Shown here: piece after piece, positions 1-39,491 of the stretch
Numbering within the stretch: position 1 is the stretch's first letter
Layout of the letters: every line of letters starts with the position of its first letter
Assembly (NCBI GenBank): GCA_026874595.1
Contig: CM049309.1
Location: forward strand, 95,564,723-95,628,722
Direction: 5' to 3'
Origin: Sipunculus nudus
Taxonomy: Eukaryota; Annelida; Sipuncula; Golfingiida; Sipunculidae
Length of the DNA: 64,000 bases
Notes under the pieces: model-generated
The model's input: only the letters and a program-made list of their open reading frames with translations
The model's database searches: none
What the model was told of the DNA's origin: nothing
Position numbers and translations under genes: made by a program

Positions 1-3000
1 CAATATAGAACTACAAAGAACCTGACCCTGAATCCCAGTAGCTGAGGTCTGACAATATAGAACTACAAAGAACCTGACCCTGAATCTCAGTAGCGGAGGT
101 CTGACAATATAGAACTACAAAGAACCTGACTCTGAATCCCAGTAGCGGAGGTCTGACAATATAATCTACCCAGAACCTGACCCTGAATCCCAGTAGTGGA
201 GGTCTGACAATATAGAACTACAAAGAACCTGACCTTGAATACGAGTAGGGGAGGTCTGACAATATAATCTACCCAGAACCTGACCCTGAATCCCAGTAGC
301 GGAGGTCTGACAATAAAGAACTACAAAGAACCTGAACTACAAAGAACCTGACCTTGAATCCCGGTAGCGGAGGTCTGACAATATAGAACTACAAAGAACC
401 TGACCTTGAATCCCGGTAGCGGAGGTCTGACAATATAGAACTACAAAGATCCTGACCTTGAATCCCAGTAGCGGAGGTCTGACAATATAGAACTACAAAG
501 AACCTGACCTTGAATCCCAGTAGCAGAGGTCTGACAATATAGAACTACAAAGAACCTGACCTTGAATCCCAGTAGGGGAGGTCTGACAATATAGAACTAC
601 AAAGAACCTGACCCTGAATCCCAGTAGCGGAGGTCTGACAATATAGAACTACAAAGAACCTGACCTTGAATCCCAGTAGGGGAGGTCTGACAATATAGAA
701 CTACAAAGAACCTGACACTGAATCCCAGTAGCAGAGGTCTGACAATATAGAACTACCCAGAACCTGACCCTGAATCCCAGTAGCGGAGGTCTGACAATAA
801 AGAACTACAAAGAACCTGACCTTGAATCCCAGTAGCGGAGGTCTGACAATATAGAACTACAAAGAACCTGACCTTGAATCCCAGTAGGGGAGGTCTGACA
901 ATATAGAACTACAAAGAACCTGACCCTGAATCCAAGTAGCGGAGGTCTGACAATATAATCTACCCAGAACCTGACCCTGAATCCCAGTAGCGGAGGTCTG
1001 ACAATATAGAACTACAAAGAACCTGACCTTGAATACGAGTAGGGGAGGTCTGACAATATAATCTACCCAGAACCTGACCCTGAATCCCAGTAGCGGAGGT
1101 CTGACAATAAAGAACTACAAAGAACCTGAACTACAAAGAACCTGACCTTGAATCCCGGTAGCGGAGGTCTGACAATATAGAACTACAAAGAACCTGACCT
1201 TGAATCCCGGTAGCGGAGGTCTGACAATATAGAACTACAAAGATCCTGACCTTGAATCCCAGTAGCGGAGGTCTGACAATATAGAACTACAAAGAACCTG
1301 ACCTTGAATCCCAGTAGCAGAGGTCTGACAATATAGAACTACAAAGAACCTGACCTTGAATCCCAGTAGGGGAGGTCTGACAATATAGAACTACAAAGAA
1401 CCTGACCCTGAATCCCAGTAGCGGAGGTCTGACAATATAGAACTACAAAGAACCTGACCTTGAATCCCAGTAGGGGAGGTCTGACAATATAGAACTACAA
1501 AGAACCTGACACTGAATCCCAGTAGCAGAGGTCTGACAATATAGAACTACCCAGAACCTGACCCTGAATCCCAGTAGCGGAGGTCTGACAATAAAGAACT
1601 ACAAAGAACCTGACCTTGAATCCCAGTAGCGGAGGTCTGACAATATAGAACTACAAAGAACCTGACGTTGAATCCCAGTAGGGGAGGTCTGACAATATAG
1701 AACTACAAAGAACCTGACCCTGAATCCAAGTAGCGGAGGTCTGACAATATAGAACTACAAAGAACCTGACCCTGAATCCCAATAGCGGAGGTCTGACAAT
1801 ATAGAACTACAAAGAACCTGACCTTGAATCCCAGTAGGGGAGGTCTGACAATATAGAACTACAAAGAACCTGACACTGAATCCCAGTAGCAGAGGTCTGA
1901 CAATATAGAACTACCCAGAACCTGACCCTGAATCCCAGTAGCGGAGGTCTGACAATAAAGAACTACAAAGAACCTGACCTTGAATCCCAGTAGCGGAGGT
2001 CTGACAATATAGAACTACAAAGAACCTGACCTTGAATCCCAGTAGGGGAGGTCTGACAATATAGAACTACAAAGAACCTGACCCTGAATCCCAGTAGGGG
2101 AGGTCTGACAATATAGAACTACAAAGAACCTGACCCTGAATCCCAGTAGGGGAGGTCTGACAATATAGAACTACAAAGAACCTGACCCTGAATCCCAGTA
2201 GCGGAGGTCTGACAATATAGAACTACAAAGAACCTGACCCTGAATCCCAGTAGCGGAGGTCTGACAATATAGAACTACAAAGAACCTGACCTTGAATCCC
2301 AGTAGGGGAGGTCTGACAATATAGAACTACAAAGAACCTGACCCTGAATCCCAGTAGCGGAGGTCTGACAATATAGAACTACAAAGAACCTGACCTTGAA
2401 TCCCGGTAGCGGAGGTCTGACAATATAGAACTACAAAGATCCTGACCTTGAATCCCAGTAGCGGAGGTCTGACAATATAGAACTACCCAGAACCTGACCC
2501 TGAATCCCAGTTGGGGAGGTCTGACAATATAGAACTACAAAGAACCTGACCTTGAATCCTAGTAGGGGAGGTCTGACAATATAGAACTACAAAGAACCTG
2601 ACACTGAATCCCAGTAGCAGAGGTCTGACAATATAGAACTACCCAGAACCTGACCCTGAATCCCAGTAGCGGAGGTCTGACAATAAAGAACTACAAAGAA
2701 CCTGACCTTGAATCCCAGTAGCGGAGGTCTGACAATATAGAACTACAAAGAACCTGACCTTGAATCCCAGTAGGGGAGGTCTGACAATATAGAACTACAA
2801 AGAACCTGACCCTGAATCCCAGTAGCGGAGGTCTGACAATATAGAACTACAAAGAACCTGACACTGAATCCCAATAGCGGAGGTCTGACAATAAAGAACT
2901 ACAAAGAACCTGACTCTGAATCCCAGTAGGGGAGGTCTGACAATATAGAACTACAAAGAACCTGACCTTGAATCCCAGTAGCAGAGGTCTGACAATATAG

Positions 3001-3458
3001 AACTACAAAGAACCTGACCCTTATTCCCAGTAGCGGAGGTCTGACAATATAGAACTACAAAGAACCTGACTCTGAATCCCAGTAGCGGAGGTCTGACAAT
3101 ATAGAACTACAAAGAACCTGACCTTGAATCCCAGTAGCAGAGGTCTGACAATATAGAACTACAAAGAACCTGACCCTTATTCCCAGTAGCGGAGGTCTGA
3201 CAATATAGAACTACAAAGAACCTGACCCTGAATCCCAATAGCGGAGGTCTGACAATATAGAACTACAAAGAACCTGACCATGAATCCCAGTAGGAGAGGT
3301 CTGACAATATAGAACTACAAAGAACCTGACCCTGAATCCCAGTAGCGGAGGTCTGACAATAAATAACTACCCAGAACCTGACCTTGCATCCAAGTAGTGG
3401 AGGTCTGACAATATAGGACAAGAAAGAACCTGACCTTGAATCCCAGTAGCGGAGGTCT
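1..3458. repeat. 52-bp minisatellite built on a UBE3C exon/donor junction
   Basis: About 66 near-identical copies of a 52-bp unit run from the left edge into the exon at 3435-3565. Read on the minus strand, each unit has 24 nt equal to the exon end (AGACCTCCGCTACTGGGATT and CAAG or CAGG), the donor gtcagg, and about 22 nt more of intron. Minor variants (aaag/ccca, ggag/agag) recur in a larger pattern. For instance, the block with the rare 16-nt insertion near 325 reappears near 1110, giving a higher-order period of about 0.79 kb. There are no unique spacers, so this is not a CRISPR. The array continues off the left end. Confidence 0.97.
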
Positions 3459-3565
3459 TGAGCAGCTTGTAACAAACTTCAGCAGTTGACGTTTCTGTCG
3501 ATCAGAGAACTGAACCAGCACTCTCCAGAAAGACTGTATGACTGGGTGGTCTGACGCATAACCGC
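3435..3565 (-). CDS. UBE3C: UBE3C coding exon: HECT C-lobe start
   Basis: 131 nt, entered in phase 1 (completes a Gly codon) and left in phase 0. The acceptor is a T-rich tract ending gcag, and the donor is AAG/gtcagg. The 43 codons after the split Gly read GGYASDHPVIQSFWRVLVQF..., then KFVTSCSRPPLLGFK, matching the UBE3C segment just before its last exon. The FVT.CSRPPL.GF block is the conserved start of the HECT C-lobe, which carries the ubiquitin thioester. The catalytic Cys itself is in the next exon, off the left edge. Oddity: the last 24 nt (RPPLLGFK) plus 28 nt of intron form the unit of the adjoining 52-bp array, so the true donor is the first of dozens of near-identical sites. Confidence 0.96.
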
Positions 3566-3648
3566 CTGCAAAATTTAAAAGTGGCTATAAATTCACTATT
3601 CTTTAGTTTACAAGAAATATCAAGGTGGCAAGGTATATAACTGGTTTG

Positions 3649-3688
3649 TTAAACAACCCTGACCCATGGGTCTAAATGCTCAGCTGAC
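3649..3688. repeat. Family-2 terminus remnant (GACCCATGGGTC palindrome)
   Basis: The stretch holds the palindrome gacccatgggtc followed by gctcagctga, the same arrangement as the left termini at 9687, 39492 and 46426. It is degenerate in between. The hAT-like element at 3689 has inserted into it, duplicating CAGCTGAC. Confidence 0.6.
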
Positions 3689-4570: not shown

Positions 4571-4680
4571 CAGCTGACTAGCATGACATTCTAGATTAAG
4601 TGCAATTCAGATCTTTGAAAAACAGTGTAATGTTGTTCAGTCGTATGATGATCAGTGGAAAAAAGATCTGACAGAGGTCT

Positions 4681-4870
4681 TTAATCTGATATAAAGGACC
4701 TGGCTATGGATGAGAAAGCAGATATAAAGGACCTGACTATGGATGATTAAGCTTATATAAAGGATCTGACTGTAGATATTGTCAGACCTCTGCTACTGGG
4801 ATTCAGTGTCAGGTTCTGGGTAGTTCTATGTTGTCAGGCCTCCTCTACTGGGATTCAGGGTCAGGTTCTT
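4681..4870. repeat. Inverted patch of the 33-bp and 52-bp repeats
   Basis: Positions 4690-4779 hold about three 33-bp units in the opposite orientation to the main array at 4871-9350. Positions 4780-4869 hold two 52-bp units opposite to the array at 1-3458. The order suggests an inversion or template switch joining the two arrays. The patch could form foldbacks with either main array. Confidence 0.85.
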
Positions 4871-4994
4871 TGCAGTAAAGCTTTATCTGGCTATGGTTTA
4901 TATCAGCTTTATCATCTATAGCCAGGTCCTTTAAATCAGCTTTATCATCTATAGTCAGGTCCTATAAGTTAGCTTTGTTATCTATAGTCAGGTC

Positions 4995-7208
4995 CTATAA
5001 ATTAGCTTTATCATCTACAATCAAGTCCTCCATATTAGCTTTATCATCCATAGTCAGGTCCATTATATCAGCTTTATCATCTATAGCCAGTTCCTTTATA
5101 TCAGCTTTATCATCCATAGCCAGGTCCTTTAAATCAGCTTTTTCATTTATAGTCAGGTCATTCTTATCAGCTTTATCAGTTATAGTCAGGCCTTTTATAT
5201 CAGCTTCATCATCTACATTGAAGTCCTCCATATAAGCTTTATCATCCACAGTCAGGTCCTTTATATAAGCTTTATCATCCACAGTCAGGTCCTTTATATT
5301 AGCTTTATCATTTATAGTCAGGTCCTTTATATCAGCTTTATCATCTATAGCCAGGTCCTTTATATCAGCTTTATCACCTATGGCCAGGTTCTTTAAATTA
5401 GTTTTATCATCCATAGCCAGGTCCTTTATATCAGCTTCATCATCTATGGGCAAGTCCTCCATATTAGTTTTATCATCCATAGTCAGGTCCTTTATATCAG
5501 CTTCATCATCTATAGTAAGGTCCTTTATATCAGCTTCATCAACTATAGTAAGGTCCTTTATATCAGCTTCATCATCTATGGGCAAGTCCTCCATATTAGT
5601 TTTATCATCCATAGCCAGGTCCTTTATTTCAGCTTCATCATCTAAAAACAGGTCCTTTAAATTAGCTTTATCATCTATAGTAAGGTCCTTTATATCAGCT
5701 TCATCATCTATGGGCAAGTCCTCCATATTAGTTTTATCATCTATAGTAAGGTCCTTTATTTCAGCTTCATCATCTACATTGAAGTCCTCCATATAAGCTT
5801 TATCATCCACAGTCAGGTCCTTTATATAAGCTTTATCATCCACAGTCAGGTCCTTTATATTAGCTTTATCATTTATAGTCAGGTCCTTTATATCAGCTTT
5901 ATCATCTATAGCCAGGTCCTTTATATCAGCTTTATCACCTATGGCCAGGTTCTTTAAATTAGTTTTATCATCCATAGCCAGGTCCTTTATATCAGCTTCA
6001 TCATCTATGGGCAAGTCCTCCATATTAGTTTTATCATCCATAGTCAGGTCCTTTATATCAGCTTCATCATCTATAGTAAGGTCCTTTATATCAGCTTCAT
6101 CAACTATAGTAAGGTCCTTTATATCAGCTTCATCATCTATGGGCAAGTCCTCCATATTAGTTTTATCATCCATAGCCAGGTCCTTTATTTCAGCTTCATC
6201 ATCTAAAAACAGGTCCTTTAAATTAGCTTTATCATCTATAGTAAGGTCCTTTATATCAGCTTCATCATCTATGGGCAAGTCCTCCATATTAGTTTTATCA
6301 TCTATAGTAAGGTCCTTTATTTCAGCTTCATCATCTATGGGCAAGTCCTCCATATTAGTTTTATCATCCATAGCCAGGTCCTTTATTTCAGCTTCATCAT
6401 CTAAAAACAGGTCCTTTAAATTAGCTTTATCATCTACAATCAAGTCCTCCATATTAGCTTTATCATCCATAGTCAGGTCCTTTATATCAGCTTTATCATC
6501 CATAGCCAGTTCCTTTATATCAGCTTTATCATCCATAGCCAGGTCCTTTAAATCAGCTTTCTCATTTATAGTCAGGTCATTCTTATCAGCTTTATCAGTT
6601 ACAGTCAGGCCTTTTATATCAGCTTCATCATCTACATTCAAGTCCTCCATATAACCTTTATCATCCGCAGTCAGGTCTTTTATATAACTTTTATCATCCG
6701 CAGTCAGGTCCTTTATATTAGCTTTATCATTTATAGTCAGGTCCTTTATATCAGCTTTATCATCTATAGCCAGGTCCTTTATATCAGCTTTATCACCTAT
6801 GACCAGGTTCTTTAAATTAGTTTCATCCATAGCCAGGTCCTTTATATCAGCTTCATCATCTATGGGCAAGTCCTCCATATTAGTTTTATCATCCATAGCC
6901 AGGTCCTTTATATCAGCTTCATCATCTATAGTAAGGTCCTTTATATCAGCTTCATCAACTATAGTAAGGTCCTTTATATCAGCTTCATCATCTATAGTAA
7001 GGTCCTTTATATCAGCTTCATCATCTATAGTAAGGTCCTTTATATCAGCTTCATCATCTATGGGCAAGTCCTCCATATTAGTTTTATCATCCATAGCCAG
7101 GTCCTTTATTTCAGCTTCATCATCTAAAAACAGGTCCTTTAAATTAGCTTTATCATCTATAGTAAGGTCCTTTATATCAGCTTCATCATCTATGGGCAAG
7201 TCCTTCAT
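4995..7208 (-). other. Open frame of 11-residue repeats, left part (probably not a gene)
   Basis: A 737-codon minus-strand frame made wholly of 11-residue repeats of the form D-I-K-D-L-T-I-D-D-E-A, with variants NMEDLPIDDEA, NLKDLFLDDEA and EIKDLAMDDKT. The translation is acidic and could form amphipathic 11-mer helices. A 1-bp deletion separates it from the right-hand frame. The consensus has no stop in this frame, so a tandem DNA repeat of 33 bp stays open automatically. A plus-strand frame is also long. No promoter, splice site, poly-A signal or non-repeat domain was found. I infer a repeat by-product, but expression has not been excluded. Confidence 0.3.
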
Positions 7209-9337
7209 ATTAGTTTATCATCTATAGTAAGGTCCTTTATTTCAGCTTCATCATCTATGGGCAAGTCCTCCATATTAGTTTTATCATCTATAGTAAGGTC
7301 CTTTATTTCAGCTTCATCATCTATGGGCAAGTCCTCCATATTAGTTTTATCATCCATAGCCAGGTCCTTTATATCAGCTTCATCATCTAAAGTCAGGTCC
7401 TTTAAATTAGCTTCATCATCTATAGTAAGGTCCTTTATATCAGCTTCATCATCTATGGGCGAGTCCTCCATATTAGTTTTATCATCCATAGCCAGGTCCT
7501 TTATTTCAGCTTCATCATCTAAAAACAGGTCCTTTAAATTAGCTTTATCATCTATAGTAAGGTCCTTTATATCAGCTTCATCATCTATGTGCAAGTCCTC
7601 CATATTAGTTTTATCATCTATAGTTAGGTCCTTTATTTCAGCTTCATCATCTAAAAACAGGTCCTTTATATCAGCTTCATCATCTATAGTCAGGTCCTTT
7701 ATATCAGCTTTATCATCCATAGCCAGGTCCTTTATATCAGCTTCATCATCTATAGTAAGGTCCTTTATATCAGCTTCATCATCTATAGTAAGGTCCTTTA
7801 TATCAGCTTCATCATCTATAGTAAGGTCCTTTATATCAGCTTCATCATCTATAGTAAGGTCCTTTATGTCAGCTTCATCATCTATGGGCAAGTCCTCCAT
7901 ATTAGTTTTATCATCCATAGCCAGGTCCTTTATATCAGCTTCATCATCTATAGTAAGGTCTTTTATATCAGCTTCATCATCTATAGTAAGGTCCTTTATA
8001 TCAGCTTCATCATCTATAGTAAGGTCCTTTATGTCAGCTTCATCATCTATAGTAAGGTCCTTTATATCAGCTTCATCATCTATGGGCAAGTCCTCCATAT
8101 TAGTTTTATCATCCATAGCCAGGTCCTTTATATCAGCTTCATCATCTAAAAACAGGTCCTTTAAATTAGCTTTATCATCTATAGTAAGGTCCTTTATATC
8201 AGCTTCATCATCTATGGGCAAGTCCTCCATATTAGTTTTATCATCCATAGCCAGGTCCTTTATATCAGCTTCATCATCTATGGGCAAGTCCTCCATATTA
8301 GTTTTATCATCCATAGCCAGGTCCTTTATATCAGCTTCATCATCTAAAAACAGGTCCTTTAAATTAGCTTTATCATCTATAGTAAGGTCCTTTATATCAG
8401 CTTCATCATCTATGGGCAAGTCCTCCATATTAGTTTTATCATCCATAGCCAGGTCCTTTATTTCAGCTTCATCATCTAAAAACAGGTCCTTTAAATTAGC
8501 TTTATCATCTATAGTAAGGTCATTTATATCAGCTTCTTCATCTATGGGCAAGTCCTCCATATTAGTTTTATCATCCATAGCCAGGTCCTTTATATCAGCT
8601 TCATCATCTATGGGCAAGTCCTCCATATTAGTTTTATCATCCTTAGCCAGGTCCTTTATATCAGCTTCATCATCTAAAAACAGATCCTTTAAATTAGCTT
8701 CATCATCTATAGTAAGGTCCTTTATATCAGCTTCATCATCTATGGGCAAGTCCTCCATATTAGTTTTATCATCCATAGCCAGGTCCTTTATTTCAGCTTC
8801 ATCATCTAAAAACAGGTCCTTTAAATTAGCTTTATCATCTATAGTAAGGTCCTTTATATCAGCTTCATCATCTATGGGCAAGTCCTCCATATTAGTTTTA
8901 TCATCCATAGCCAGGTCCTTTATATCAGCTTCATCATCTATAGTCAGGTCCTTTAAATTAGCTTTATCATCTAAAGTCAGCTCCTTTATATCAGCTTCAT
9001 CATCTAAAGTCAGGTCCTTTAAATTAGCTTTATCATCTAAAGTCAGGTCCTTTATATCAGCTTCATCATCTATGGGCAAGTCCTCCATATTAGTTTTATC
9101 ATCCATAGCCAGGTCCTTTATATAAGCTTCATCATCTAAAGTCAGGTCCTTTAAATTAGCTTTATCATCTAAAGTCAGGTCCTTTATATCAGCTTCATCA
9201 TCTATGGGCAAGTCCTCCATATTAGTTTTATCATCCATAGCCAGGTCCTTTATATTAGCTTTATCATTTATAGTCAGGTCCTTTATATCAGCTTCATCAT
9301 CTATAGTCAGGTCCTTTATATTAGCTTTATCATCCAT
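7205..9337 (-). other. Open frame of 11-residue repeats, right part (probably not a gene)
   Basis: About 710 codons in the same repeat style, starting from an ATG at 9337. A TAG lies eight codons upstream, and no coding-like sequence or splice acceptor is visible before it. The frame is the +1 partner of the left part, broken by a missing base in the run near 7216. The sense strand is the same as that of UBE3C. Changes between units fall at first and second codon positions as readily as at third positions by eye, which argues against selection on protein. Confidence 0.3.
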
Positions 9338-9594
9338 AGCAAGGTCCAAGAATTTTGCATGCTAACAGGACTATAGTGAACCAGGGGTGCATTTATTCAA
9401 TGTTAAGGTTCAACTGTGAATTTGGGTTCACCAACCTTGAACACTCAGAGGGGCATGGGTGATCAAAAAGAAGACTCAAAATCATGTATTCACTGTGTAG
9501 CTTTAAATAGGTCAGTGAGACCTTACTTTTGGTTTGCCAGAGATTTCTGCATATTGAGCAAGAACCTTCTGACCTCATGGTTAAGATTTGTGCT

Positions 9595-9676: not shown

Positions 9677-9686
9677 TTAAAAAAAA

Positions 9687-12114: not shown

Positions 12115-15100
12115 ATTGGGAAATACACCAGGTATAATGCTTCAATGCTGGACCATTACTTCTCATGTATATGAACAATGCAAGTACTAAACATTTTGAA
12201 TAAGAAACAATTACACAAACATCACTGCTGAAATTCTGGCATGGGCGCACACAACACAAAAATGATTGTAGCTGGCACCATCAGTCTTGTATACAACAAA
12301 GCTATCAGAGATATATACATATGCCCAATTTCAGGCTGATATATCAAATTCCTCTGTAGAAATAAGCAGGCGCATACACTGCGCAAAAGTCATTGTAGGT
12401 GGCGACACCTGTCTTGTGAACAAGAAAACCATCAAAGACACATAGACAGGTCAAAATATCAGGCCAATACATCAAACTTACCTTGAGTCTGATGCATGGG
12501 GCTGACCAGGCTTTGGTGAGATAGGCAGTTGCCCCGAGTGAACTGTGACAAATTTGCTAGCTGGCTCAGGCAACTGCACTAAATGAACTCATGACCTGCA
12601 CCTGGCTAGACTGAGTGAACTTTCCACCTGTACCTGGCTGCACTGAGTGAACTCTTGACCTGTTGCATAATCTGACACAGTTGGTAGTCCACATGCAGCC
12701 CTGAGGGGCATGACACCCATGAGGTGATCACATGGTAGCCATGAGGTGTTCACATGTCACCCATGAGGTGATCACATGCCTTGTGCCTGGCTGCACTGAC
12801 TGAACTCTTGACCTATATCTGACTGCACTGAATGAACTCTTTATCTGTTGCCAAATCTGAAACAGTTGGCAGTTTCTCAACCTATTTAAAGATACAATCT
12901 TGGTCTGTTGGTAAATCTTTTACACATACTAAAAGACTTTGGCTAAAATGCTTTTTTTTTCAAGCCGACATATTCATAAACTTTTTATCAAAATATCTGA
13001 AATAACAAAAGATGCAGTTCTTTAATTGTTAAAGGTCCAATAATTCTGCCAAAAATCATTCAAGTAAACTTGAACAAAGGCCACCTAAGAATAATTTTTG
13101 TGCAATATTACAGAAGTTATAATTGAAACAATAATTTTGTAGAAGAACAGTTTTGCAGTCCTCAGTTTGAAATAGACATAATAATGGCCATAAGACCAAC
13201 TTAAGCTTTTCTGATATGATTGAAAGAACCATGTCTTAGGATAATTCTTTTGAAAAATTGAACGATTCAACTTGACAGTTTCATCATAAACATTTTAAGA
13301 TGAAAGAGGCTAAAATTATGAGGTTTTTTGCCCATAAAAAAACAGGTCAATGTAGGTGGCACCACAAAATCTGCAACTTCAAATATGAGTCATGTGACCA
13401 ACATTTGCACAATACTTGGTAATGCTAGCTTCTGTCATTTCTGAGATTACTATGTCAGTATGCTTAATTGGCAAAATGACTGTTCAAATTTGTGTAACAC
13501 CACTAAAATTCATCAAATGCAAACCATTTGAACAAACTTGAGAGGGCTTGCCTCTGGGATCATTTTTGTACAATAAGAAGACTTTTAAAGGATTTTCAGC
13601 TTTTCCCCTATAAAATCTTAAGTAAATGCAGATAGCAAATAAATAAGCTGAATCCCATAACATTTGATATGTGACAGATTATTGCATTAGATCTAGGGAT
13701 TGTAGCTCCTGCTATTCCTGAGAAATTATGGGTAAATGTACAGATGACCAATGACCCCCGTACAAAAAAAGGTCAATGCAGGTGGCACCACCAATAACTG
13801 AATTTCATATGTGACTCGTGACCAACACTGGCATAAAATTTGGTGATGATAGCTCCGGCCTTTCCTGAGATTGTCATTTTAGTATGCTTTTTTGGACAGT
13901 TAGCTAAGTTTAACATTTTGTAACTCAGCCAAAATTCACCGAACTTGAACCATTCGAACAAACTTGAGAGATATGGTATAAAAGATTATTTCTGTGAAAT
14001 ATTGAACAATTTGGCTTGACTGTTTCTGAGGAGAAGATTTTTAAAGATTTTTAGCTTTTTCTCTATAAAATCTCAGAAAATGCAGAGATTTTCAGATGGC
14101 TAATTTTTTGCATTAAATTTCATGATACTAGGTCCAGTTGTTTTTGAAATAGTATGGGTTAAGGACGACAACAGACGATGCCAAACCATCGCCTTAGCTC
14201 ACAGGTTCGCAAAAAATTACTACAGATGCATATTGAATGCAAAATTATAATACAGATACATCTCACTGATGGCAAAATCTTGAATAAAGCTGAGTATGGA
14301 TACCAATTATTTATAATCCATGTACAGCCATCTTTATACACCCTCAGAGAGCTGTATACCTGTGTTTGTAAACATTGCCTGGCATGAGGAATATCTAAAA
14401 TCATAAATCTACATTTTTTAAAAGCTTTTAAAAAACATTCTTGTCAATATTAACACTAGATAACCTGAAATCTAAATGTCTAGAGGCAAGATGTAACAGA
14501 TGCTAATAAACTGGTGCCAGGCTATATGTATCTGCTTCACACAGCTAACATATATGGTAAAATGACTCAATTCAATCTTTGTAATTCAACCAAAATTCAT
14601 TCTTTGGAACCATAAAAGACAATTATCATGAGAATTATTCAGGGGATTATTCCTGTAAAATATTAAACAAATTGGCCTCAGTGGCGTCAGTCAAAAAACG
14701 TTTTGCAGGTTTATAACTCATATGGGAAAATACAGCTAAATGGCTAAGTTAAGCTTCCCATATCTCAGCCAAAAATTAGTGAACCAAAACCATTTGAACA
14801 AACTTGACTTATCAACATCTAAGGATAATTTATGTGTGAGATTTAAGAATTTGGCCCAGTGGTTTTTGAGAAGAAGTTCTTTGTAGCCACGGAGCCAAAA
14901 TGGGCTGTTATGGCATATGACTAAATTCAGCTTCCCATAACTCAGCCAAAAGTCACTGAACTGAGACTATTTGAACAAACTTCAGAAAGCACTACCCTAG
15001 GATCATTTCTGTGCGATATTAAACAATTTGGCCATATGGCTTCAGAGAAGAAGTTTTTTGTAGCAGTCAGTATGATTGGGGCACTGATGACCCCAGTACA

Positions 15101-18419: not shown

Positions 18420-18576
18420 CTGAGTATTTAGTGTGAACTCGGAGGTCGTCCAGGTCAACAGGAACCACAGCTCCTGATATCAACACCTGAAGCTCATGAT
18501 GATCAAACATACGCAGCCATTCTAAATTAATAACATCAGCCAGGCCATGTCTGAAAGCCTGACAGTGGGCACGGAT
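18420..18576 (-). CDS. UBE3C: UBE3C coding exon: HECT N-lobe, end
   Basis: 157 nt, phase 0 in, phase 1 out (first base of a split Gly). The acceptor is ttttttacag and the donor TCAG/gtaaat. It encodes IRAHCQAFRHGLADVINLEW, then LRMFDHHELQVLISGAVVPV and DLDDLRVHTKYSG, matching UBE3C RQHCLAFRQGL...EWLRMFD..E.QVLISG in order. The F..G......L.MF...E.Q.LI.G signature is characteristic of HECT domains near the N-lobe/C-lobe hinge. The first 76 nt of this exon plus about 20 nt of intron make up the unit of the 95-bp array at 18501-19960. The array copies have lost the acceptor AG. Confidence 0.96.
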
Positions 18577-19960
18577 CTGTAAAAAATACAAACAGTACAT
18601 CAAATATACACAGCCTCTCTAAATTAATAACATCAGCCAGGCCATGTCAGAGAGCCTGACAGTGGGTACAGATATGTAAAATATAAACAGTACATCAAAC
18701 ATACACAGCCTCCCCAAATTAATAACATCAACCAGGCCATGTCAGAAAGCCTGACAGTGTGTGCAGATATGTAAAATACAAACAGTACACCAAACATACG
18801 CAGCCTCTCTAAATTAATAACTTCAGCCAGGCCATGTCAGAAAGCCTGACAATGGGTACACATATGTAAAATACAAACAGTACACCAAACATACACAGCC
18901 TCCCTAAATTAAAAACATCAGCCAGGCCATGTCAGAAAGCCTGACAGTGGCTACAGATATGTGAAATACAAACAGTACATCAAACATACACAGCCTCCTT
19001 AAATTAATAACATCAGCCAGGCCATGTCAGAAAGCCTGACAGTGGGTTCAGATATGTGAAATACAAACAGTACATCAAACATACACAGCCTTTCTAAATT
19101 AATAACATCAGCCAGGCCGTGTCAGAAAGCCTGACAATGGGTACACATAAGTAAAATACAAACAGTACATCAAACAGACGCAGCCTCTCTAAATTAATAA
19201 CTTCAGCCAGGCCATGTCAGAAAGCCTGACAGCGGGTACAGATATGTAAAATACAAACAGTACACCAAACATACACAGCCTCCCTAAATTAAAAACATCA
19301 GCCAGGCCATGTCAGAAAGCCTGACAGCGGGTACAGATATGTAAAATACAAACAGTACACCAAACATACACAGCCTCCCTAAATTAAAAACATCAGCCAG
19401 GCCATGTCAGAAAGCCTGACAGTGGGTACAGATATGTGAAATACAAACAGTTCATCAAACATACACAGCCTCCCTAAATTAAAAACATCAGCCAGGCCAT
19501 GTCAGAAAGCCTGACAGTGGGTACAGATATGTAAAATACAAACAGTACATCAAACATACACAGCCTCTCTAAATAAATAACATCAGCCAGGCCGCGTCAG
19601 AAAGCCTGACAGCAGGTACAGATATGTAAAATACAAACAGTACATCAAACATACACAGCCTCCTTAAATTAAAAACATCAGCCAGGCCATGTCAGAAAGC
19701 CTGACAATGGGTACATATATGTAAAATACAAACAGTACATCAAACATACACAGCCTCTCTAAATTAATAACATCAGCCAGGCCGTGTCAGAAAGCCTAAG
19801 AGCGGGTACAGATATGTGAACTACAAACAGTACATCAAACATACCCAGCCTCTCTAAATTAATAACATCAGCCAGGCCATGTCAGAAAGCCTGACAGCGG
19901 GTACAGATATGTAAAATACAAACAGTTCATCAAACAGACACAGCCTCTCTAAATTATTAA
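18501..19960. repeat. 95-bp minisatellite built on a UBE3C acceptor/exon junction
   Basis: About 14 copies at 95-bp spacing (cagcc starts at 18611, 18706, 18801, 18896, 18991 and so on), plus the exon itself. On the minus strand the unit has about 20 nt of intron and then 76 nt of the exon at 18420-18576. In the gene the junction reads ttttacag/atccgtgccc. In the copies it reads attttacatatctgtaccc, so the AG has become AT (ctt in the copy at 19146). Exon-like sequence is about 85-90% similar by eye. Confidence 0.95.
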
Positions 19961-20108
19961 CATGATGAATATGAACATATGAATAATAGCTATGAGAAGG
20001 CCAGGCCGTGCTGATGGTTGTTTAAGCTATGAGAAGTTGCAATGTTTGGTCTGAATTGAAGAATAAGGGATTGGTGCTACTAATATCTTGTGATCTGACC
20101 ATGTGTTT

Positions 20109-23418: not shown

Positions 23419-23517
23419 CTGTCTGTTGAGTTTATGGTGAGCCATCAGATGTATGTATTCTATCTTGTTATAGTTGTTGACTGTTATATCTTTACCTCCA
23501 GGCTTCAGTTCATCAAC
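23419..23517 (-). CDS. UBE3C: UBE3C coding exon: HECT N-lobe, middle
   Basis: 99 nt, phase 0 at both ends, giving 33 codons: [20 protein letters not shown], then [13 protein letters not shown]. The acceptor is ttgtatag and the donor CAG/gtaaac. It corresponds to the UBE3C stretch VELKFGGKDIPVT..NRI.YIHL.ADYRLNRQ. The [10 protein letters not shown]...YI motif is widely conserved in HECT N-lobes. It lies in an isolated position, 4.8 kb from the next exon and 10.9 kb from the previous one. It is the one exon in the window with no tandem array at either edge. Confidence 0.95.
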
Positions 23518-23872: not shown

Positions 23873-25865
23873 ACAAGGCATACAGGCCTAATGCGAACCT
23901 GTGCAATGGTTTATACACCAGGTATAATGCTTCAATGCTGGGCCATTACTTTTCAAGTAGGCCTACATATCTTGTATACGATGAAGGTATCAGAGATGTA
24001 TACATATACCCAATTTCAGGCTGATATACCCTCCTGAGAAATAAGCTGGGACATACACTGTGCAAATATTATTGTAGGTAGCGCCACCAGTCTTGTATAC
24101 AACAAAGCTTTATGATATGTATAAATTTGCCCAATTTCAGGCTGTTATATCAAATTCCTCTGGAGAAATAAGCAGGCACATACACTGTGCAAAAGTCATT
24201 GTAGGTGGCGACACCTGTCTTGTGAACGAGAAAGCTATCAAAGACACAGACAGGCCAAATATCAGGCCAATACATCAAACTACTGGAGTTTGATGCACTA
24301 GCTGACCAGGCTTAGGTGAGAAAGGCAGTTTCCCTGAGTGAACTGTGACAAATTGCTGGCTCAAGCTACTGCACTGAGTGAACTCTTGACCTGCATCTGA
24401 CTAGACTGAGTGAACTTTTGACCTGAACCTAGCTGCACTGAGTAAACTCTTGACCTGTTGCATAATCTGACCAAGCTGGCAGTTTGCGAAAGCTATAGAT
24501 AGATCCAGGCTGACCTTTGGCTCCAAATCTGATACAGTGGGCAGTCTGCCAAAGCTATAAATAGAATGCAGCTACTGCACTGAGTGAACTCTTGACCTAT
24601 ACCTGGCTGCACTGAGTGAACTCTTGACCTGTTGCCTAATCTGTTACAGTTGCAAATCTGCCAAAGCTATAAACAGATCCAGGCTGACCTTTGGCCTGTT
24701 ACAAAATCTGAAATAGTTGGCAGTCTGCCAAGCTATTTAACCTGAAATCTAGTGGCATGATGTTATAGAAGCTGATAAAATGGTGCCAGGCTAGATGTAA
24801 CTGCTTCACACAGTTAACATATATGGTAAAATGACTCAATTCAGGCTCCATAATTCAGCCAAAAATCATTCATGTGGAACCATTAAAAACAATAATTATA
24901 AGAATTATTGTGGGGATTATTCTAATAAAATATCTAACAAATTTGCTTCAGGGGCATTAGTCGTAAAACGTTTTGCAGGTCTATCACTCATATAGGAAGA
25001 TACAGCAAACTGGCAAATAGCAAACAAAGTTCAGCTTCCTGTAACTCAGCCAAAAAGCACTGAACCAAAACCATTTGAACAAACTTGAATTATCAACATT
25101 TGAGGATAATTAATGTGTGAGATTTAAGAATTTGGCCCAGTGGTTTTTGAGAAGAAGATCTTTGTAGCCACTAAGCTGAAATGTGCTGTTATGGCATATG
25201 ACTAAATTCAGCTTCCCATTACTCAGCCAAAAGTCACTAAACAGAGACAATTTGAACAAACTTCAGAAAGTACTACCCTAGGATCATTTCCTTGCAATAT
25301 TAAACAATTTGGCCATATGGTTTCAGAGAAGAAGTTTTTTGTAGCCCTCAGTGTGATATAGGCACTGATGACCTCCGTACAAAAAAGGCCAATGCAGGTG
25401 GGGCCACCAACACCTCAATTTCAGATATGACTCATGTGACCAACATTGGCACAAAATTTGGTGATGTTGCTCCAGCCGTTTTTTTAGATTTAAATTTTAA
25501 TATGCCTTTTGGACAGATGACTAAGTTCAACTTCCTGTAACTTGGCAAAAAATTAACGAACTGGAACCATTTGAACAAATTTGAGAGAGATGGTATAAAA
25601 GATCATTTCTGTGAAATACTGAACAATTTGGCTGGACTGTTTCGTCGGAGAAGATTTTTAAATGTTTTTTAGCTCTTTCCCTATAAAATCTAAGAAAATG
25701 CAGTTATCCAAAAAATAAGCAAAATCTGATTGAGTTTTTCAGATGGCTAATTTTTTGCATAAAAATTTGTGATGCCAGCACCTGTTGTTTTCGAGATAGT
25801 ATATGGGTTAACGTACAGACGACGGATGACGCCACACAATCGCATTTGCTCACAGGTTCGCTTAA
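23873..25865. mobile_element. Family-1 element, shorter copy
   Basis: Starts acaaggcatacaggcctaat and gcgaacctgtgc, and ends cacaggttcgcttaa. The 11-bp subterminal inverted repeat GCGAACCTGTG / CACAGGTTCGC is intact. At 2.0 kb it lacks part of the interior seen in the 3.7-kb copies. Internal modules include the palindrome-bearing segment ggtagcgccacc. Confidence 0.8.
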
Positions 25866-32350: not shown

Positions 32351-32583
32351 AAATTTCAAATGAAATATGTTTTTACATGTCACTAAAAGATTATGGCACT
32401 ATCTATTCCATTTAAACTTTCATCTTATGGATGACTTTCTGTTTCCTTTTAACCCTTCATTTAACCGATGACTTACTGGTTTCTTGAACACTTTTGATTT
32501 CCCTTTAAACTTTCCTTTTAATGGAAGCTTACTGCCTTCATGAATCTTAGTTGTATCCATCAGCAAGGTCAAAAAAGCATTAA

Positions 32584-34398
32584 CTTTTTAAGTAATCTGT
32601 ATTTACACAGGCACTCAGTCCAGCCAGTCAGCCATACATACTTTTTAAGTAATCTGTACCTACACAGGTACTCAGTCCAGCCAGTCAGCCATACATACTT
32701 TTTAAGTAATCTGTATCTACACAGGCACTCAGTCCAGCCAGTCAGCCATACATACTTTTTAAGTAATCTGTATCTACACAGGCACTCAGTCCAGCCAGTC
32801 AGCCATACATACTTTTTAAGTATCTGTATCTACATAGGCACTCAGTCCAGCCAGTCAGCCATACATACTTTTTAAGTAATCTGTATCTACACAGGCACTC
32901 AGTCCAGCCAGTCAGCCATACATACTTTTTAAGTAATCTGTATCTACACAGGCACTCAGTCCAGCCAGTCAGCCATACATACTTTTTAAGTAATCTGTAT
33001 CTACACAGGCACTCAGTCCAGCCAGTCAGCCATACATACTTTTTAAGTAATCTGTATCTACACAGGCACTCAGTCCAGCCAGTCAGCCATACATACTTTT
33101 TAAGTAATCTGTATCTACACAGGCACTCAGTCCAGCCATACATACTTTTTAAGTAATCTGTATCTACACAGGCACTCAGTCCAGCCAGTCAGCCATACAT
33201 ACTTTTTAAGTAATCTGTATCTACACAGGCACTCAGTCCAGCCAGTCAGCCATACATACTTTTTAAGTAATCTGTATCTACACAGTCACTCAGTCCAGCC
33301 AGTCAGCCATACATACTTTTTAAGTAATCTGTATCTACACAGGCACTCAGTCCAGCCAGTCAGCCATACATACTTTTTAAGTAATCTGTATCTACACAGG
33401 CACTCAGTCCAGCCAGTCAGCCATACATACTTTTTAAGTAATCTGTATCTACACAGGCACTCAGTCCAGCCAGTCAGCCATACATACTTTTTAAGTAATC
33501 TGTATCTACACAGGCACTCAGTCCAGCCAGTCAGCCATACATACTTTTTAAGTAATCTGTATCTACACAGGCACTCAGTCCAGCCAGTCAGCCGTACATT
33601 CTTTTTAAGTAATCTGTATCTACACAGGCACTCAGTCCAGCCAGTCAGCCGTACATACTTTTTAAGTAATCTGTATCTACACAGGCACTCAGTCCAGCCA
33701 GTCAGCCGTACATACTTTTTAAGTAATCTGTATCAACACAGGCACTCAGTCCAGCCAGTCACCCATACATACTTTTTAAGTAATCTGTATCTACACAGGC
33801 ACTCAGTCCAGCCAGTCAGCCATACATACTTTTAAAGTAATCTGTATCTACACAGGCACTCAGTCCAGCCAGTCAGCCATACATACTTTTTAAGTAATCT
33901 GTATCTACACAGGCACTCAGTCCAGCCAGTCAGCCATACATACTTTTTAAGTAATCTGTAACTACACAGGCACTCAGTCCAGCCAGTCAGCCATACATAC
34001 TTTTTAAGTAATCTGTATCTACACAGGCACTCAGTCCAGCCAGTCACCCATACATACTTTTTAAGTAATCTGTATCTACACAGGCACTCAGTCCAGCCAG
34101 TCAGCCATACATACTTTTTAAGTAATCTGTATCTACACAGGCACTCAGTCCAGCCAGTCAGCCATACATACTTTTTAAGTAATCTGTATCTACACAGGCA
34201 CTCAGTCCAGCCAGTCAGCCATACATACTTTTTAAGTAATCTGTATCTACACAAGTACTCAGTCCAGCCAGTCAGCCATACATACTTTTTAAGTAATCTG
34301 TATCTACACAGGCACTCAGTCCAGCCAGTCAGACATACATACTTTTTAATTAATCTGTATCAACACAGGTACTCAGTCCAGCCAGTCAGCCATACATA
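32584..34398. repeat. 57-bp minisatellite abutting a UBE3C donor
   Basis: About 32 copies of a 57-bp unit (ctttttaagtaatctg...cagccatacata on the plus strand). They end at 34398, immediately before the donor of the exon 34404-34494. On the minus strand the gene reads ACG/gtaagtatgtatggctgac, while each copy reads aaaaagtatgtatggctgac. The copied donor GT is therefore AA in the units, while the next GTATGT is retained. Because 57 is a multiple of 3, long spurious frames arise on both strands. Most copies differ by 0-2 bases. Confidence 0.96.
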
Positions 34399-34403
34399 CT
34401 TAC

Positions 34404-34494
34404 CGTGACCTCACCCAGCCTATCATTGGTAATCGTAAAGTCAAGACCAAGGTCAGACACATCACCATCATAATGCTTCAGGAACAACAAATTT
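34404..34494 (-). CDS. UBE3C: UBE3C coding exon: HECT N-lobe
   Basis: 91 nt, phase 2 in (completes AA/A, Lys), phase 0 out. The acceptor is gattgtag and the donor ACG/gtaagt. It encodes NLLFLKHYDGDVSDLGLDFT then ITNDRLGEVT, matching UBE3C NLLFLKSYEDDVEELGLNFT.VNN.LGE. The DV..L.L.F pattern is typical of HECT N-lobes. Its donor is contiguous with the 57-bp array: the first intronic bases after gtaag are already array sequence. The splice site therefore marks the array border. Confidence 0.95.
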
Positions 34495-34885
34495 CTACAA
34501 TCACAAACACAGAAGAACCAGTAACCCCAGTTAACAAGAAAACACACATACATTTATACTGTTTATACTGAAGAAGGGAAAAGATGGTTTTTGACCACCC
34601 TGTTGAGGGTGTCACATTTCCAGTTTCCTAACTTAGTCATGACTTTTAAAGCGAGAACAAATCCTGTTCAGGGGCAGGCCATGGAGGAGTGCTAGCTTAG
34701 GGCAAAAATAACACTTCAGCACTTTTGTCTCAAAGTTAGGTCCAAAAAATTAGAATGACAAGCTGAGATGGGGTACTTGCCTATAGTAGAAAAGGGCCAT
34801 AGATTAAATCTGCAGCCTCAAACATCCTGATAAATGCTAATACTGTAACAAAGAAGGAACACAAGATGATGGTTATTAAGCTTGA

Positions 34886-35006
34886 AACTTAGCATGAATT
34901 GCCTCTGTTATTTAGATTGTAACTTAGCATGAATTGAATCTGTTATTTAGCTTGTAACTTAGCATGAATTACCACCATTATTTAGATTGTAACTTAGCAT
35001 GAATTG
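34886..35006. repeat. 35-bp repeat, about 3.5 copies, next to a UBE3C donor
   Basis: The unit is aacttagcatgaattg plus about 19 nt, ending at 35006, with the donor at 35021-35026. On the minus strand the gene reads TACAA/gtaagtaaaaga, then caattcatgctaag. The units read tacaagctaaataacaga, then caattcatgctaag. The unit is thus a copy of the exon end and donor with GT changed to GC or TC. Confidence 0.8.
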
Positions 35007-35026
35007 CCAGTTTGTCTTTTACTTAC

Positions 35027-35151
35027 TTGTACATTTCAGGGTCCAAGGAAGCCAAGTGATGGATATCAACTTCACCGCCATGACGACCGAGAATCTTGGA
35101 CAGGAAGAAGCTGGCAAATGGTAGCTCCACCAGCATGTTTTCATACAGTGC
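35027..35151 (-). CDS. UBE3C: UBE3C coding exon: HECT N-lobe
   Basis: 125 nt, phase 0 in, phase 2 out. The acceptor is tatttacag and the donor TACAA/gtaagt. It encodes ALYENMLVELPFASFFLSKI, then LGRHGGEVDIHHLASLDPEM, then Y and two bases of Lys. The UBE3C counterpart is ALYENMLVELPFA.FFLSKLLG....VDIHHLASLDPE.YK. It belongs to the N-lobe region that helps hold the E2. Compared with the human protein there is a small length difference in the RHGGE loop. A 35-bp array at 34886-35006 starts about 15 nt after the donor and appears to be derived from it. A 22-bp array lies about 90 nt upstream of the acceptor. Confidence 0.96.
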
Positions 35152-35237
35152 CTGTAAATAAAAATGCTCAGTCACTAAAAACAACTAATCTGAGGAAGAA
35201 CTGATTGGAAAAAATAAAGACCCTAAATTAGGGCCAT

Positions 35238-35391
35238 GCTTGGTGAAGATCCTTGATCTGCTTGGTGAGGATCCTTGATCTGCTTGGTGAGGATCCTTGA
35301 TCTGCTTGGTGAGGATCCTTGATCTGCTTGGTGAGGATCCTTGATCTGCTTGGTGAGGATCCTTGATCTGCTTGGTGAGGATCCTTGATCT
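35238..35391. repeat. 22-bp minisatellite, 7 copies
   Basis: Seven exact or near-exact copies of gcttggtgaggatccttgat plus ct, with a GGATCC core. They lie in the intron about 90 nt upstream of the acceptor of exon 35027-35151. No resemblance to the splice site was seen. Confidence 0.95.
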
Positions 35392-35736: not shown

Positions 35737-35981
35737 CTTTCCTAGAAGTCTTCCTATGAAGTAGTAATGGTTGGTCATGTTGTCCACCACTGCCTGGGCC
35801 TGGGGGTTTGGATACAACAACTGGTCACTGGTGAACCTGAAGAACCCTCGGTTTGGATCAAATGCAGTTTTAAGGACTTCTGATAAAAATTCCCGGAACA
35901 GCCCTCCTCCATCAATGCCTGCCTCGTTCAGACCCGCAAAGTTTGTCAGCTGAACTTGCATCCGAAGTTTCATGTTTGGTT
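35737..35981 (-). CDS. UBE3C: UBE3C coding exon: HECT N-lobe with EAGIDGGG motif
   Basis: 245 nt, phase 1 in, phase 0 out. The acceptor is tttattcag and the donor AAAG/gtaggc. It encodes EPNMKLRMQVQLTNFAGLNE, then AGIDGGGLFREFLSEVLKTA, FDPNRGFFRFTSDQLLYPNP, and ends HYYFIGRLLGK. The motifs GL.EAGIDGGG.FREFL.E, NP..G.F, LYPNP and YYF.GR.LGK are the hallmark of HECT N-lobes, and the exact wording is UBE3C rather than UBE3B or NEDD4. An ATG occurs four codons into the exon, but the acceptor and upstream conserved residues show that it is internal and not a start. Confidence 0.97.
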
Positions 35982-36559: not shown

Positions 36560-39160
36560 ACAAGGCCTACAGGCCTAATGCGAACCTGTGCATATTGATA
36601 TACACCAGGTATAACACTTCAATGCTGAACCACTACTTTTCATATATATGAACAATGCAAGTACTAAACATTTTGAACAAGAAACAATACACAAACATCA
36701 CTGCTGAAATTCTGGCATGGGTGCACACATCACAAAAATTATTGTAGGTGGCACCACCAGTCTTGTATACGACGAAGCTATTTGACATGTATAAATATGC
36801 CCAATTTCAGGCTGATATATCAAATTCTTCCGTAGAATTAAGCAGGCACATACACTTTGCAAAAGTCATTGTAGATGGCAACACCATTCTTGTGAATGAG
36901 AAAGCCATTAGAGACACATAGACAGGTCAGAATATCAGCCCAATACATCAAACTTACCTTGAGTCTGATGCACGGGGCTGACCGGGCTTAGGTGAGAAAG
37001 GCTGTTGCCCCAAGTGTACTGTGACAAATTACTGGCTCAGGCTACTGCACTGAGTGAACTCTTGACCTGCACCTGGCTAGACTGAGTGAACTTTTGACCT
37101 GTACCTGGCTGCACTGAATGAACATGAGGTGATCACATGAAACTCATGAGGTGATCACATGCTACCCATGAAATGATCACATGCTGCCCATGAGGTGATC
37201 ACATGCCTTGTGCTTGGCTGCACTGATTGAACTCTTGACCTAAATCTGGCTGCACTGAATGAACTCTTGATCTGTTGCCAAATCTGAAACAGTTGGCAGT
37301 TTCTCAACCTATTTAAGAAACATACACAATCTTGGCCTGTTATGTAACTCTGCTAAAATTTATCCAACACAAACCATTTGAACAAACTTGAGAAGGCTCG
37401 CCTCTGGGATCATTTCTGTAAAATATTGAACAATTTGGCTGGACTCTTTACAAGAAGAAGAAGTTTTTTCAGCTTTTCCCCTGAAAAATCTAAGTAAATG
37501 CAGATAGCAAAAATAAGCTGAATCCATCAACATTTGATATGTGACTGATAATTGCATAAAATTTGGAGATGGTAGCTCCTGCTATTCCTGAGAAATTATA
37601 ATTATTGTATAGATATGTAATCATAAATCTACAATTTTTAAAAGCTTTTAAAAAACATTGTCAATATTTTCCATAGATATTCTGAAATCTAAATGTCTAG
37701 AGGCATGATGTAATGGATGCTGATAAAATGGTGCTAGGCTAGATGTATCTGCTTCACACAGCTAACATATATGGTAAAGCGACTCAATTCAATCTTTATA
37801 ATTCAGCCAAAATTCAATTTTTGGAACCATAAAAGACAATTATTATTAGAATGATTCAGGGAATTATTCTTGCAAAATATTAAACAAACTGGCCTCAGTA
37901 TCATCAGTCGAAAAACGTTTTGTAGGTTTATAACTCATATGGGAAAATAAAGCAAAATGGCAAAGTTCAGCTTCCCATAACTCAGCCAAAAATCATTGAA
38001 CTAAAACCATTTGAACAAACTTGAATTATCAACTTCTAAGGATAATCAATGTGTGAGATTTAAGAATTTGGCCCAGTGGTTTTTGAGAAGAAGATTTTTG
38101 TAGCCACTCAGCTAACATGGGCTGTTATGGCATATGACTAAATTCAGCTTCCCATAACTTAGCCAAAAGTCACTGAACTGAGACCATTTGAACAAACTTG
38201 AATTATCAACATCTAAGGATAATTAATGTGTGAGATTTAAGAATTTGGACCAGTGGTTTTTGAGAAGAAGATTTTTGTAGCCACTAAGCTTACATGGGCT
38301 GTTATGGCATATGACTAAATTCAGCTTCCCATAACTCAGCCAAAAGTCACTGAACTGAGACCATTTGAACAAACTTGAATTATCAACATCTAAGGATAAT
38401 CAATGTGTGAGATTTTAGAATTTGGCCCAGTGGTTTTTGAGAAGAAGATTTTTGTAGCCACTTAGCTAAAATGGGCTGTTATGGCATATGACTAAATTCA
38501 GCTTCCCATAACTTAGCCAAAAGTCACTGAACTGAGACCATTTGAACAAACTTCAGAAAGCACTACCCTAGGATCATTTCTGTGCGATATTAAACAATTT
38601 GGCCATATTGTTTCAGAGAAGAAGTTATTTGTAGCTGTCAGTATGATACAGGCACTGATGACCCCCGTACAAAAAAGGCCGATGCAGGTGGCGCTACCAA
38701 TACCTCAATTTCAGATATGACTCATGTGACCAATATTGGCATAAAATTTTGTGATGATAGCTCAAGCCATTTCTGAAATTGTAATTTTAGTATGTTTTTT
38801 TGGACAGATGACTAAGTTCAACATCCTGTAACTCGGCCAAAAATCACCGAACTTAAACCATTCAAACAAACTTGAGAGAGATTGTTCCAAGAATCATTTC
38901 TGTAAAATATTGGACAATTTGGCTGAACAGATTCGGAGAAGAAGATTATTTAAGCTTTTTTAGCTTTTTCCCTATTAAATCTAAGAAAATGCAGTTAGCC
39001 AAAAAATAAGCAAAATCCGATAGAGTTTTTTAGATGACTAATTTTATGCATAAGATTTCAAGATGCTAATTCTTGCCGTTTTCAAGATAGTATGGGTTAA
39101 CGTACAGACGACGGACGCTGGACGACGCCACACCATCGCATAAGCTCACAGGTTCGCTAA
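36560..39160. mobile_element. Family-1 element, 2.6 kb
   Basis: Starts acaaggcctacaggcctaat and gcgaacctgtgc, and ends cataagctcacaggttcg and ctaa. Subterminal inverted repeats GCGAACCTGTG / CACAGGTTCGC are perfect. The interior has three tandem copies (about 37930-38530) of a module of about 180 bp with ccatttgaacaaacttg and gtggtttttgagaagaag. No long reading frame was found. It ends only 23 bp from the donor of the exon at 39189. Confidence 0.85.
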
Positions 39161-39188
39161 AAATAGATATGTGTATCTGAAAACTTAC

Positions 39189-39330
39189 CATTTTCAGGAG
39201 AGAGTTTATCAAAAGCATCCTCATACAGGTAGTTTCTCCTGACTGATATCTGTATCATCTGACCACGGCCAAAGTGATGCAGCTCACCCTGGTTTTCCTT
39301 CTTGTCTTGTTCCACCAGCTTCTGGAAAAT
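39189..39330 (-). CDS. UBE3C: UBE3C coding exon: start of HECT domain
   Basis: 142 nt, phase 0 in, phase 1 out. The acceptor is tatcttgcag and the donor AATG/gtaagt. It encodes IFQKLVEQDKKENQG, then ELHHFGRGQMIQISV, then RRNYLYEDAFDKLSPEN. The human UBE3C counterpart reads IFQRLI.ADKQE.QG ... INVTIRRNYIYEDAYDKLSPENEP. The I.VRRNY..ED.......EN signature opens the HECT domain. This is the most upstream exon found in the window. Its acceptor region aligns with the unit of the roughly 56-bp array that follows it and is now broken up by transposons. Confidence 0.95.
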
Positions 39331-39491
39331 CTGCAAGATAAAATCATAGTAAAAAAATCATGAGGAATACAGCCAGAAAACATCTATGGTAAACTCTGAG
39401 AGATCTGATACAATAATGAACCATAAAGCCACAAAATATCTATGGTAAAATCTGTAAGATGTGATACAATAATGAAGAATACAGCCATAAA
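39331..39491. repeat. About 56-bp minisatellite on a UBE3C acceptor, fragment 1
   Basis: About 2.7 units of the type catctatggtaaactctg, taagatgtaataaaat, aatgaagaatacagcc. On the minus strand each unit reads ggctgtattcttcattattt and attacatcttacag/a. The real acceptor reads ggctgtattcctcatgattt and ttatcttgcag/ATTTTCC. The unit is therefore a copy of the splice acceptor with AG kept. Later fragments are at 51990 and 58022. Confidence 0.8.

Follow-up and report, generated by a model that had tools for sequence, protein, structure and literature searches.

Tandem arrays at the edges of exons are known from amphioxus under the name of mirages, the original paper on which is said to be that of Canestro in 2002. 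A human minisatellite with multiple splice donors was reportedly described by Turri in 1995, and the gene concerned is presumably 6-16 (IFI6/G1P3). Two papers place amphioxus mirages in Adh3, the globin genes BflGb6 and BflGb9, troponin C and PGBD5 (PMC3087553, PMC3902484), the second of them naming PGBD5, Adh and troponin C as mirage genes. A third states that, in human genes, internal tandem repeats change splicing when they lie on an exon-intron boundary and may give rise to introns (PMC2812944), and a fourth describes an intron gained in the potato RdRp gene by tandem duplication crossing an intron-exon boundary (PMC4974935). We report here on such arrays in the UBE3C gene of Sipunculus nudus, three of which clearly copy the gene's own splice junctions, and in a sample of other genes from the same assembly (1.43 Gb, 153 contigs). 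The analysis centres on a stretch of 64,000 nucleotides, C4:95564723-95628722, hereafter called the window; negative coordinates and those above 64000 lie outside it and are numbered by window position.

Splice-junction arrays in UBE3C

The three clear cases have units of 52, 95 and 83 bp. When each junction, with 25 bp on either side, was aligned to the repeat unit, they scored 78, 72 and 90 against 21, 26 and 21 for the largest of 300 shuffles. The 57-bp unit reached 46 (largest shuffle 25), sharing sequence with its junction only from intron base +3; the 56-bp unit was borderline (23 against 26), and the alignment of the 35-bp unit to the donor of exon 35027-35151 was not significant (16 against 27). 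Arrays were called with Tandem Repeats Finder (TRF), which gave 61 rows in the window. In 144 kb around UBE3C, 29 non-redundant arrays had a score of at least 200: 17 of them (periods 112, 174, 177 and 278-593) were dropped by eye as resembling dispersed repeats, and 12 were kept as locus-specific. The 56-bp array is counted once among the 12 and is the only one for which this label, otherwise assigned by eye, was checked individually.

UBE3C lies on the minus strand, 1.9 Mb from the end of C4. Its exon 18420-18576 matches the UBE3C chain 6k2c with E = 4e-18 (second-best NEDD4, 3e-5), and tblastn with the human UBE3C protein as query located ten collinear exons, spread across 118 kb (window coordinates 87722 to -30538), seven of them within the window. 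Residues 1-602 and about 640-664 of this query were without a tblastn match, so UBE3C has exons beyond those examined here.

The 52-bp unit is composed of about 24 bp of exon end, the donor, and about 28 bp of intron, and its array fills 22.7 kb of a UBE3C intron of roughly 33.8 kb. The exon end ...CTACTGGGATTCAAG/GTCAGGTTC recurs throughout: GT is kept in 428 of 432 aligned copies (authentic site included), 132 of the 432 are identical to the authentic 24-base junction, and 168 equal or exceed the score of the authentic donor on a simple consensus matrix. In the commonest copy G replaces A two bases before the junction. Blocks of the array repeat in order along the string of units, and TRF rows recur 794 bp apart. 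The 83-bp array repeats ELPFVIPFQDRVK/ together with its donor, with GT in all 83 aligned copies, again counting the authentic one. At the acceptors, the ten 95-bp copies aligned by tblastn all have a stop in the exon frame (HCQAF*HGL and similar). The 56-bp unit holds ATCTTACAG/ATTTTACC, resembling, in a borderline alignment, the authentic ATCTTGCAG/ATTTTCC; its last copy has, by eye, about 13 extra bases. A similarity search recovered this unit at three places, each of them within the intron that precedes exon 39189-39330; the number is a lower bound because the search ignores common words (a piece of the 52-bp array, used as query, did not recover that array). In the third piece the first two follow one another (query 40-186, then 184-287), which is how a single array split by insertions would look. 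Confinement of the matches so recovered to a single UBE3C intron disfavours a dispersed transposon as their source.

Judged by the alignments, a segment spanning the exon edge has been repeated in tandem into the intron, and the copy nearest the exon remains as the authentic site. As this copy fits the conserved UBE3C protein, the exon is the ancestor and the intronic units its copies. Amplification through block duplications can be read in part from the order of units in the 52-bp array, and the 56-bp array now lies in three pieces.

The original prediction had named five arrays, at the edges of five of the seven UBE3C exons in the window. TRF found all five in place, and translation, the 6k2c match and tblastn bear out the exons. 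The statement that every unit aligns with its junction clearly stands for the 52-bp and 95-bp arrays; of the others, the 57-bp array touches the junction from +3, the 56-bp array is borderline and the 35-bp array is only nearby. The 83-bp array and the continuation of the 52-bp array were missed because they lie outside the window.

Junction arrays in other genes

For a survey, 239 domain matches were listed (HECT 68, TCP-1 63, cullin 33, myosin head 75) and 184 kept; the 55 dropped, among them UBE3C itself and frames presumed to be bacterial or to lack introns, were removed by judgement, with no fixed rule. The kept list was shuffled and the first 80 exons were taken with 330 bases on each side, arrays qualifying at a score of at least 100 and a period of at least 15. 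Seven sampled exons overlap HECT loci on which TRF had been run before the sample was drawn, and none of these has a junction array; the flanks of all the others were new to the analysis. Eight sampled loci carry a qualifying array, and in five of the eight (L034, L046, L083, L096 and L108) the unit spans the exon's own junction, with alignments far above those of shuffles. Junction arrays thus occur in 5 of 80 exons (95% interval 2 to 14%) and in 5 of 40 gene clusters. UBE3C and sampled loci taken together, the edges hit are donors (52 bp, 83 bp, L034, L046, L108) as well as acceptors (95 bp, L083, L096), unit lengths run from 36 to 95 bp, and the junction-spanning arrays end either right at the exon edge or no more than about 75 bases into the exon. 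The five sampled arrays are 6 to 32 Mb from contig ends; a subtelomeric position is therefore not necessary and is rejected as sole cause.

The other three qualifying arrays lie off the junction, that of L086 ending about 33 bases before the acceptor and those of L094 and L065 farther away. L086 (C13:69966424-69967221) has a 45-bp array, 99% matching, near a cullin acceptor and without junction alignment; the gene is 1 Mb from the contig end. Two other observations come from the domain matches. At C2:44849337-44852248 four successive myosin-head matches cover much the same part of the profile (109-153), a pattern that alternative exons of a muscle myosin gene would give. Nine equal-scoring intronless Cpn60 frames of 547 aa, on C61, C62, C66, C72, C73, C75, C89 (twice) and C99, are probably bacterial sequence inside the animal assembly, partly redundant.

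Table 1. Exons, arrays and recurrent repeats of the UBE3C region (window coordinates), and junction arrays at surveyed loci
Feature	Position	Strand	Remarks
UBE3C exon, GYASDHPVIQ...SCSRPPLLGFK	3435..3565	-	source of 52-bp array at its donor
UBE3C exon, IRAHCQAFRHGLADVINLEWLRMFD...	18420..18576	-	6k2c match; 95-bp array at acceptor
UBE3C exon	23419..23517	-	edges array-free
UBE3C exon	34404..34494	-	57-bp array adjoins donor
UBE3C exon	35027..35151	-	35-bp array near donor
UBE3C exon	35737..35981	-	edges array-free
UBE3C exon, IFQKLVEQDKKENQGE...	39189..39330	-	56-bp array beside acceptor
UBE3C exon, outside window	about 80685-80798	-	donor copied by 83-bp array
52-bp array	1..3458 in window; full span -19234 to 3458	-	436 units, 22.7 kb; ends inside exon 3435-3565
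83-bp array, outside window	73614-80731	-	85.6 units; repeats donor junction of exon about 80685-80798
95-bp array	18502..19963	-	15.4 units; first 75 bp of exon 18420-18576 plus about 20 bp of intron end
57-bp array	32583..34401	-	32 units, intron only, from base +3 of donor of 34404-34494
35-bp array	34872..35008	-	3.9 units, about 18 bp from donor of 35027-35151
56-bp array, first piece	39349..39495	-	beside acceptor of 39189-39330
56-bp array, displaced piece	51988..52090	-	query 184-287, continues from first piece (query 40-186)
56-bp array, largest piece	58023..58525	-	8.9 units, same intron
22-bp array	35237..35391	-	not derived from a junction; 7 units, some 85 bp ahead of the 35027-35151 acceptor
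66-bp (2 x 33) array	4897..9347	-	4.5 kb, inside intron, away from junctions; counter-example
32-bp repeat family copies	12574-12778, 24368-24736, 37048-37206, 42040-42442, 52560-52962, 60047-60385; L009; L026		
L034 array			donor; 1.9 copies
L046 array			donor; at least 9.8 copies; GT kept in 10/10 (authentic included)
L108 array			donor; at least 4.6 copies of 59 bp (unit also readable as about 30)
L083 array			acceptor; at least 6.5 copies
L096 array			acceptor; 2.0 copies

Other repeats of the region

The 66-bp array was compared with other junctions as a possible copy of one of them: of 20 comparisons one gave a weak match (26 against 17.5 +- 2.5), close to the exon at 35737, which was taken as chance, and the candidate was rejected. 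Next to this array, at 4688-4876, is an inverted relic with 2.5 copies of its 33-bp unit, after which, at 4776-4876, sequence of the 52-bp array recurs in inverted orientation at 90% identity; this suggests an old inversion between the 66-bp and 52-bp arrays. A repeat family with internal 32-bp tandem repeats, mostly with 22-bp ones nearby, occurs in the window and at a random locus (Table 1). A 177-bp tandem unit is likewise recurrent in the UBE3C region.

Comparison with chance

With the 12 UBE3C arrays placed at random over 118 kb containing 20 junctions, 0.38 contacts are expected; the probability is 0.005 for three or more clear contacts and 2e-5 for five or more if touching and borderline cases are included, both values being post hoc since UBE3C was chosen for its arrays. 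By the generous count 5 of 10 UBE3C exons are hit, by the strict count 3 of 10; with the former, UBE3C stands above the sample (Fisher P = 0.001), as expected of a gene picked for its arrays. Within the flanks of the 80 sampled exons, 5 junction contacts were seen against 1.1 expected (P = 0.002), and three of the four flank arrays with at least 3 copies are at the junction (P = 0.007).

The random background was taken from 12 loci of 10 kb (120 kb) with 19 arrays, giving 0.10 to 0.16 arrays per kb, a figure inflated by the dispersed repeats that these loci contain. Against this background, the expected number of junction arrays is 0.79, 1.27 or 2.53 for units of up to 100, 150 or 400 bases, where 5 were seen (P = 0.001, 0.010 and 0.11, respectively); the 160 junctions on which this rests are nominal, some match ends being domain ends and not junctions.

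A genome-wide search for three perfect copies of AGGTAAGT at spacings of 20-50 bases yielded 1032 matches, compared with 662 for the pattern reversed, counted per match so that long arrays dominate; the control 8-mer GATGAAGT gave 511 and its reverse 507, also per match and not per array. Among the matches listed, distinct donor-pattern arrays number 0.074 per Mb (11 in 147.9 Mb). The rate for GATGAAGT arrays, again among the matches listed, is 0.025 per Mb (15 in 592.9 Mb; P = 0.008, donor higher), and that for TGAATGGA arrays, with the same restriction to listed matches, 0.396 per Mb (3 in only 7.6 Mb; P = 0.03, donor lower).

Origin and maintenance of the arrays

We consider the junction-spanning arrays to be junction minisatellites of the mirage kind, probably arisen by ordinary tandem duplication and unequal exchange and preserved because the unit within the exon is not free to disappear (probability about 0.7). 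The first duplication would be an ordinary slippage or microhomology error, and the array would then grow by unequal exchange. Purifying selection would hold the exon unit, so that the array could regrow and never be lost altogether, and arrays at junctions would come to be over-represented. Growth would proceed intronward only, since any extension into coding sequence would harm the protein. Hundreds of decoy donors could be tolerated if exon definition picks the donor next to the coding exon. A wider claim is that minisatellites in this genome generally arise or find refuge at splice junctions, the exon acting as an undeletable seed and the whole as a ratchet that lengthens introns with intact decoy sites; we advance it tentatively, with rather less than an even chance of being right.

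Several observations weigh against this account. The acceptor AG is kept in none of 14 aligned copies of the 95-bp array, the donor GT in none of the 31 copies of the 57-bp array, and at L108 GT is kept in 7 of 10 CAGG(T/A)AAA words (3 of 7 in a rougher scan). Two of the five sampled arrays, L034 (1.9 copies) and L096 (2.0), are mere doublets. Over blocks of 40 units, divergence within the 52-bp array showed no trend with increasing distance to the exon. Intron-only arrays occur in UBE3C too, such as the 66-bp array of 4.5 kb, and the excess over random DNA depends on the unit cut-off (P = 0.11 at up to 400 bp).

Because that excess is modest and cut-off dependent, array background explains part of the signal, and background plus tolerance remains a serious rival: in a minisatellite-rich genome arrays might start anywhere, those straddling an edge being tolerated, with UBE3C standing out through its position 1.9 Mb from the C4 end. 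The 0.10 to 0.16 arrays per kb of random loci agree with this, as do the 2.5 junction overlaps expected with units of up to 400 bp (P = 0.11). It accords poorly with the results at the 100-bp and 150-bp limits (P = 0.001 and 0.010), within which the units of all five sampled arrays fall, with the position test within flanks (P = 0.002), with the distance of 6 to 32 Mb between the five sampled arrays and contig ends, and with a background that dispersed repeats have inflated; as the whole explanation we find chance overlap doubtful. It is unlikely that exon edges are mutational hotspots, with R-loops or AG/GT microhomology provoking duplication. Donors and acceptors are both hit, with differing units, which would fit a hotspot; the rate of donor-pattern arrays, among the matches listed, falls between those of the two controls, GATGAAGT and TGAATGGA.

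A selected function, in which the many splice-site copies would boost or control how the exon is spliced, would account for the nearly complete preservation of the 52-bp and 83-bp decoy donors and for the 168 of 432 52-bp copies that score no lower than the authentic donor. Yet homogenisation alone keeps copies alike, and the 95-bp copies lack AG and the 57-bp copies GT, which makes such a function very improbable. An in-frame expansion of a protein repeat was rejected, 52, 83 and 95 not being multiples of three. That the arrays are assembly artefacts is hardly credible: assembling long arrays is indeed difficult, and the figure of 22.7 kb comes from one assembly, but there are eight junction-spanning arrays with differing units, at separate junctions in six genes and with diverged copies, and the 56-bp pieces are parted by other sequence.

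Part of what the original prediction had proposed holds. Units do differ between arrays and derive from junctions of the gene itself, with a frequency in UBE3C above that given by random placement, and the suggested selection against arrays entering exons fits the way in which junction-spanning arrays end at the exon edge or within about 75 bases of it. The phenomenon is neither confined to one gene, as 5 of 80 sampled exons in other genes carry copies of their own junction, nor without precedent, given the amphioxus mirages of PMC3087553 and PMC3902484. On balance the observation was largely real and is partly confirmed, and its interpretation is partly supported.

With its 428 GT donors in tandem, this intron edge offers a natural experiment in how the spliceosome settles on a single donor. 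If the arrays are indeed retained through the exon copy, they offer a simple route to longer introns, and to new introns or exons made from exon edges; if junctions are general seeds, introns would fill with intact decoy sites by the hundred, all of which the cell has to disregard. The sampled rate of 5 in 80 exons makes the idea testable genome-wide.

Comparison with known systems

In a literature search that was mostly at title level, subscription papers being largely beyond reach, we found no report of such arrays in molluscs or on a genome-wide scale. The human 6-16 minisatellite is a single locus, whereas here several genes are involved. The human boundary repeats are found in primate-specific duplicated genes (PMC2812944), with units of about 30 bp and 4 repeats on average; UBE3C is a conserved gene and its arrays are far larger. 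The potato RdRp case (PMC4974935) shares with UBE3C the tandem duplication across an intron-exon boundary, and differs in that it gave a new intron, none being shown in UBE3C.

The closest likeness is to the amphioxus mirages, as described in PMC3087553 and PMC3902484. Common to both is a minisatellite-like tandem unit spanning the exon-intron boundary (in amphioxus as in UBE3C and the sampled arrays), and in both donor and acceptor edges are affected. Many, not all, copies of the mirages keep AG or GT, and likewise here (GT in 428 of 432 and 83 of 83; AG in 0 of 14 in the 95-bp array). Mirage units measure tens of bases to about 160 bp (about 10 to 160), against 36 to 95 bp here. Mirages are homogenised inside with the boundary units left out; the 52-bp array has block repeats and no gradient over blocks of 40 units. 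For the mirages length polymorphism, somatic instability and undisturbed mRNA splicing are reported, whereas the present arrays are known from the sequence of one assembly. Mirages have been reported from cephalochordates; in the present genome a muscle myosin exon reaches 194.1 bits with the top-ranked myosin, 3i5f (squid), 193.0 with myosin-6 (mammalian) and 192.8 with 2ec6 (scallop-type), and searches for GFP (PF01353) and for the haemocyanin domain PF14830 gave no match, a result that by the tool's own caution is no proof of absence. The haplotypes of BflGb6 have 6 and 3 units, compared with up to 436 units and 22.7 kb in UBE3C, which differs further in having three clear junctions in one gene and in coming with a frequency estimate, 5 of 80 exons. 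The arrays are thus of a known kind, that of the mirages, here very large and present in several genes of one genome.

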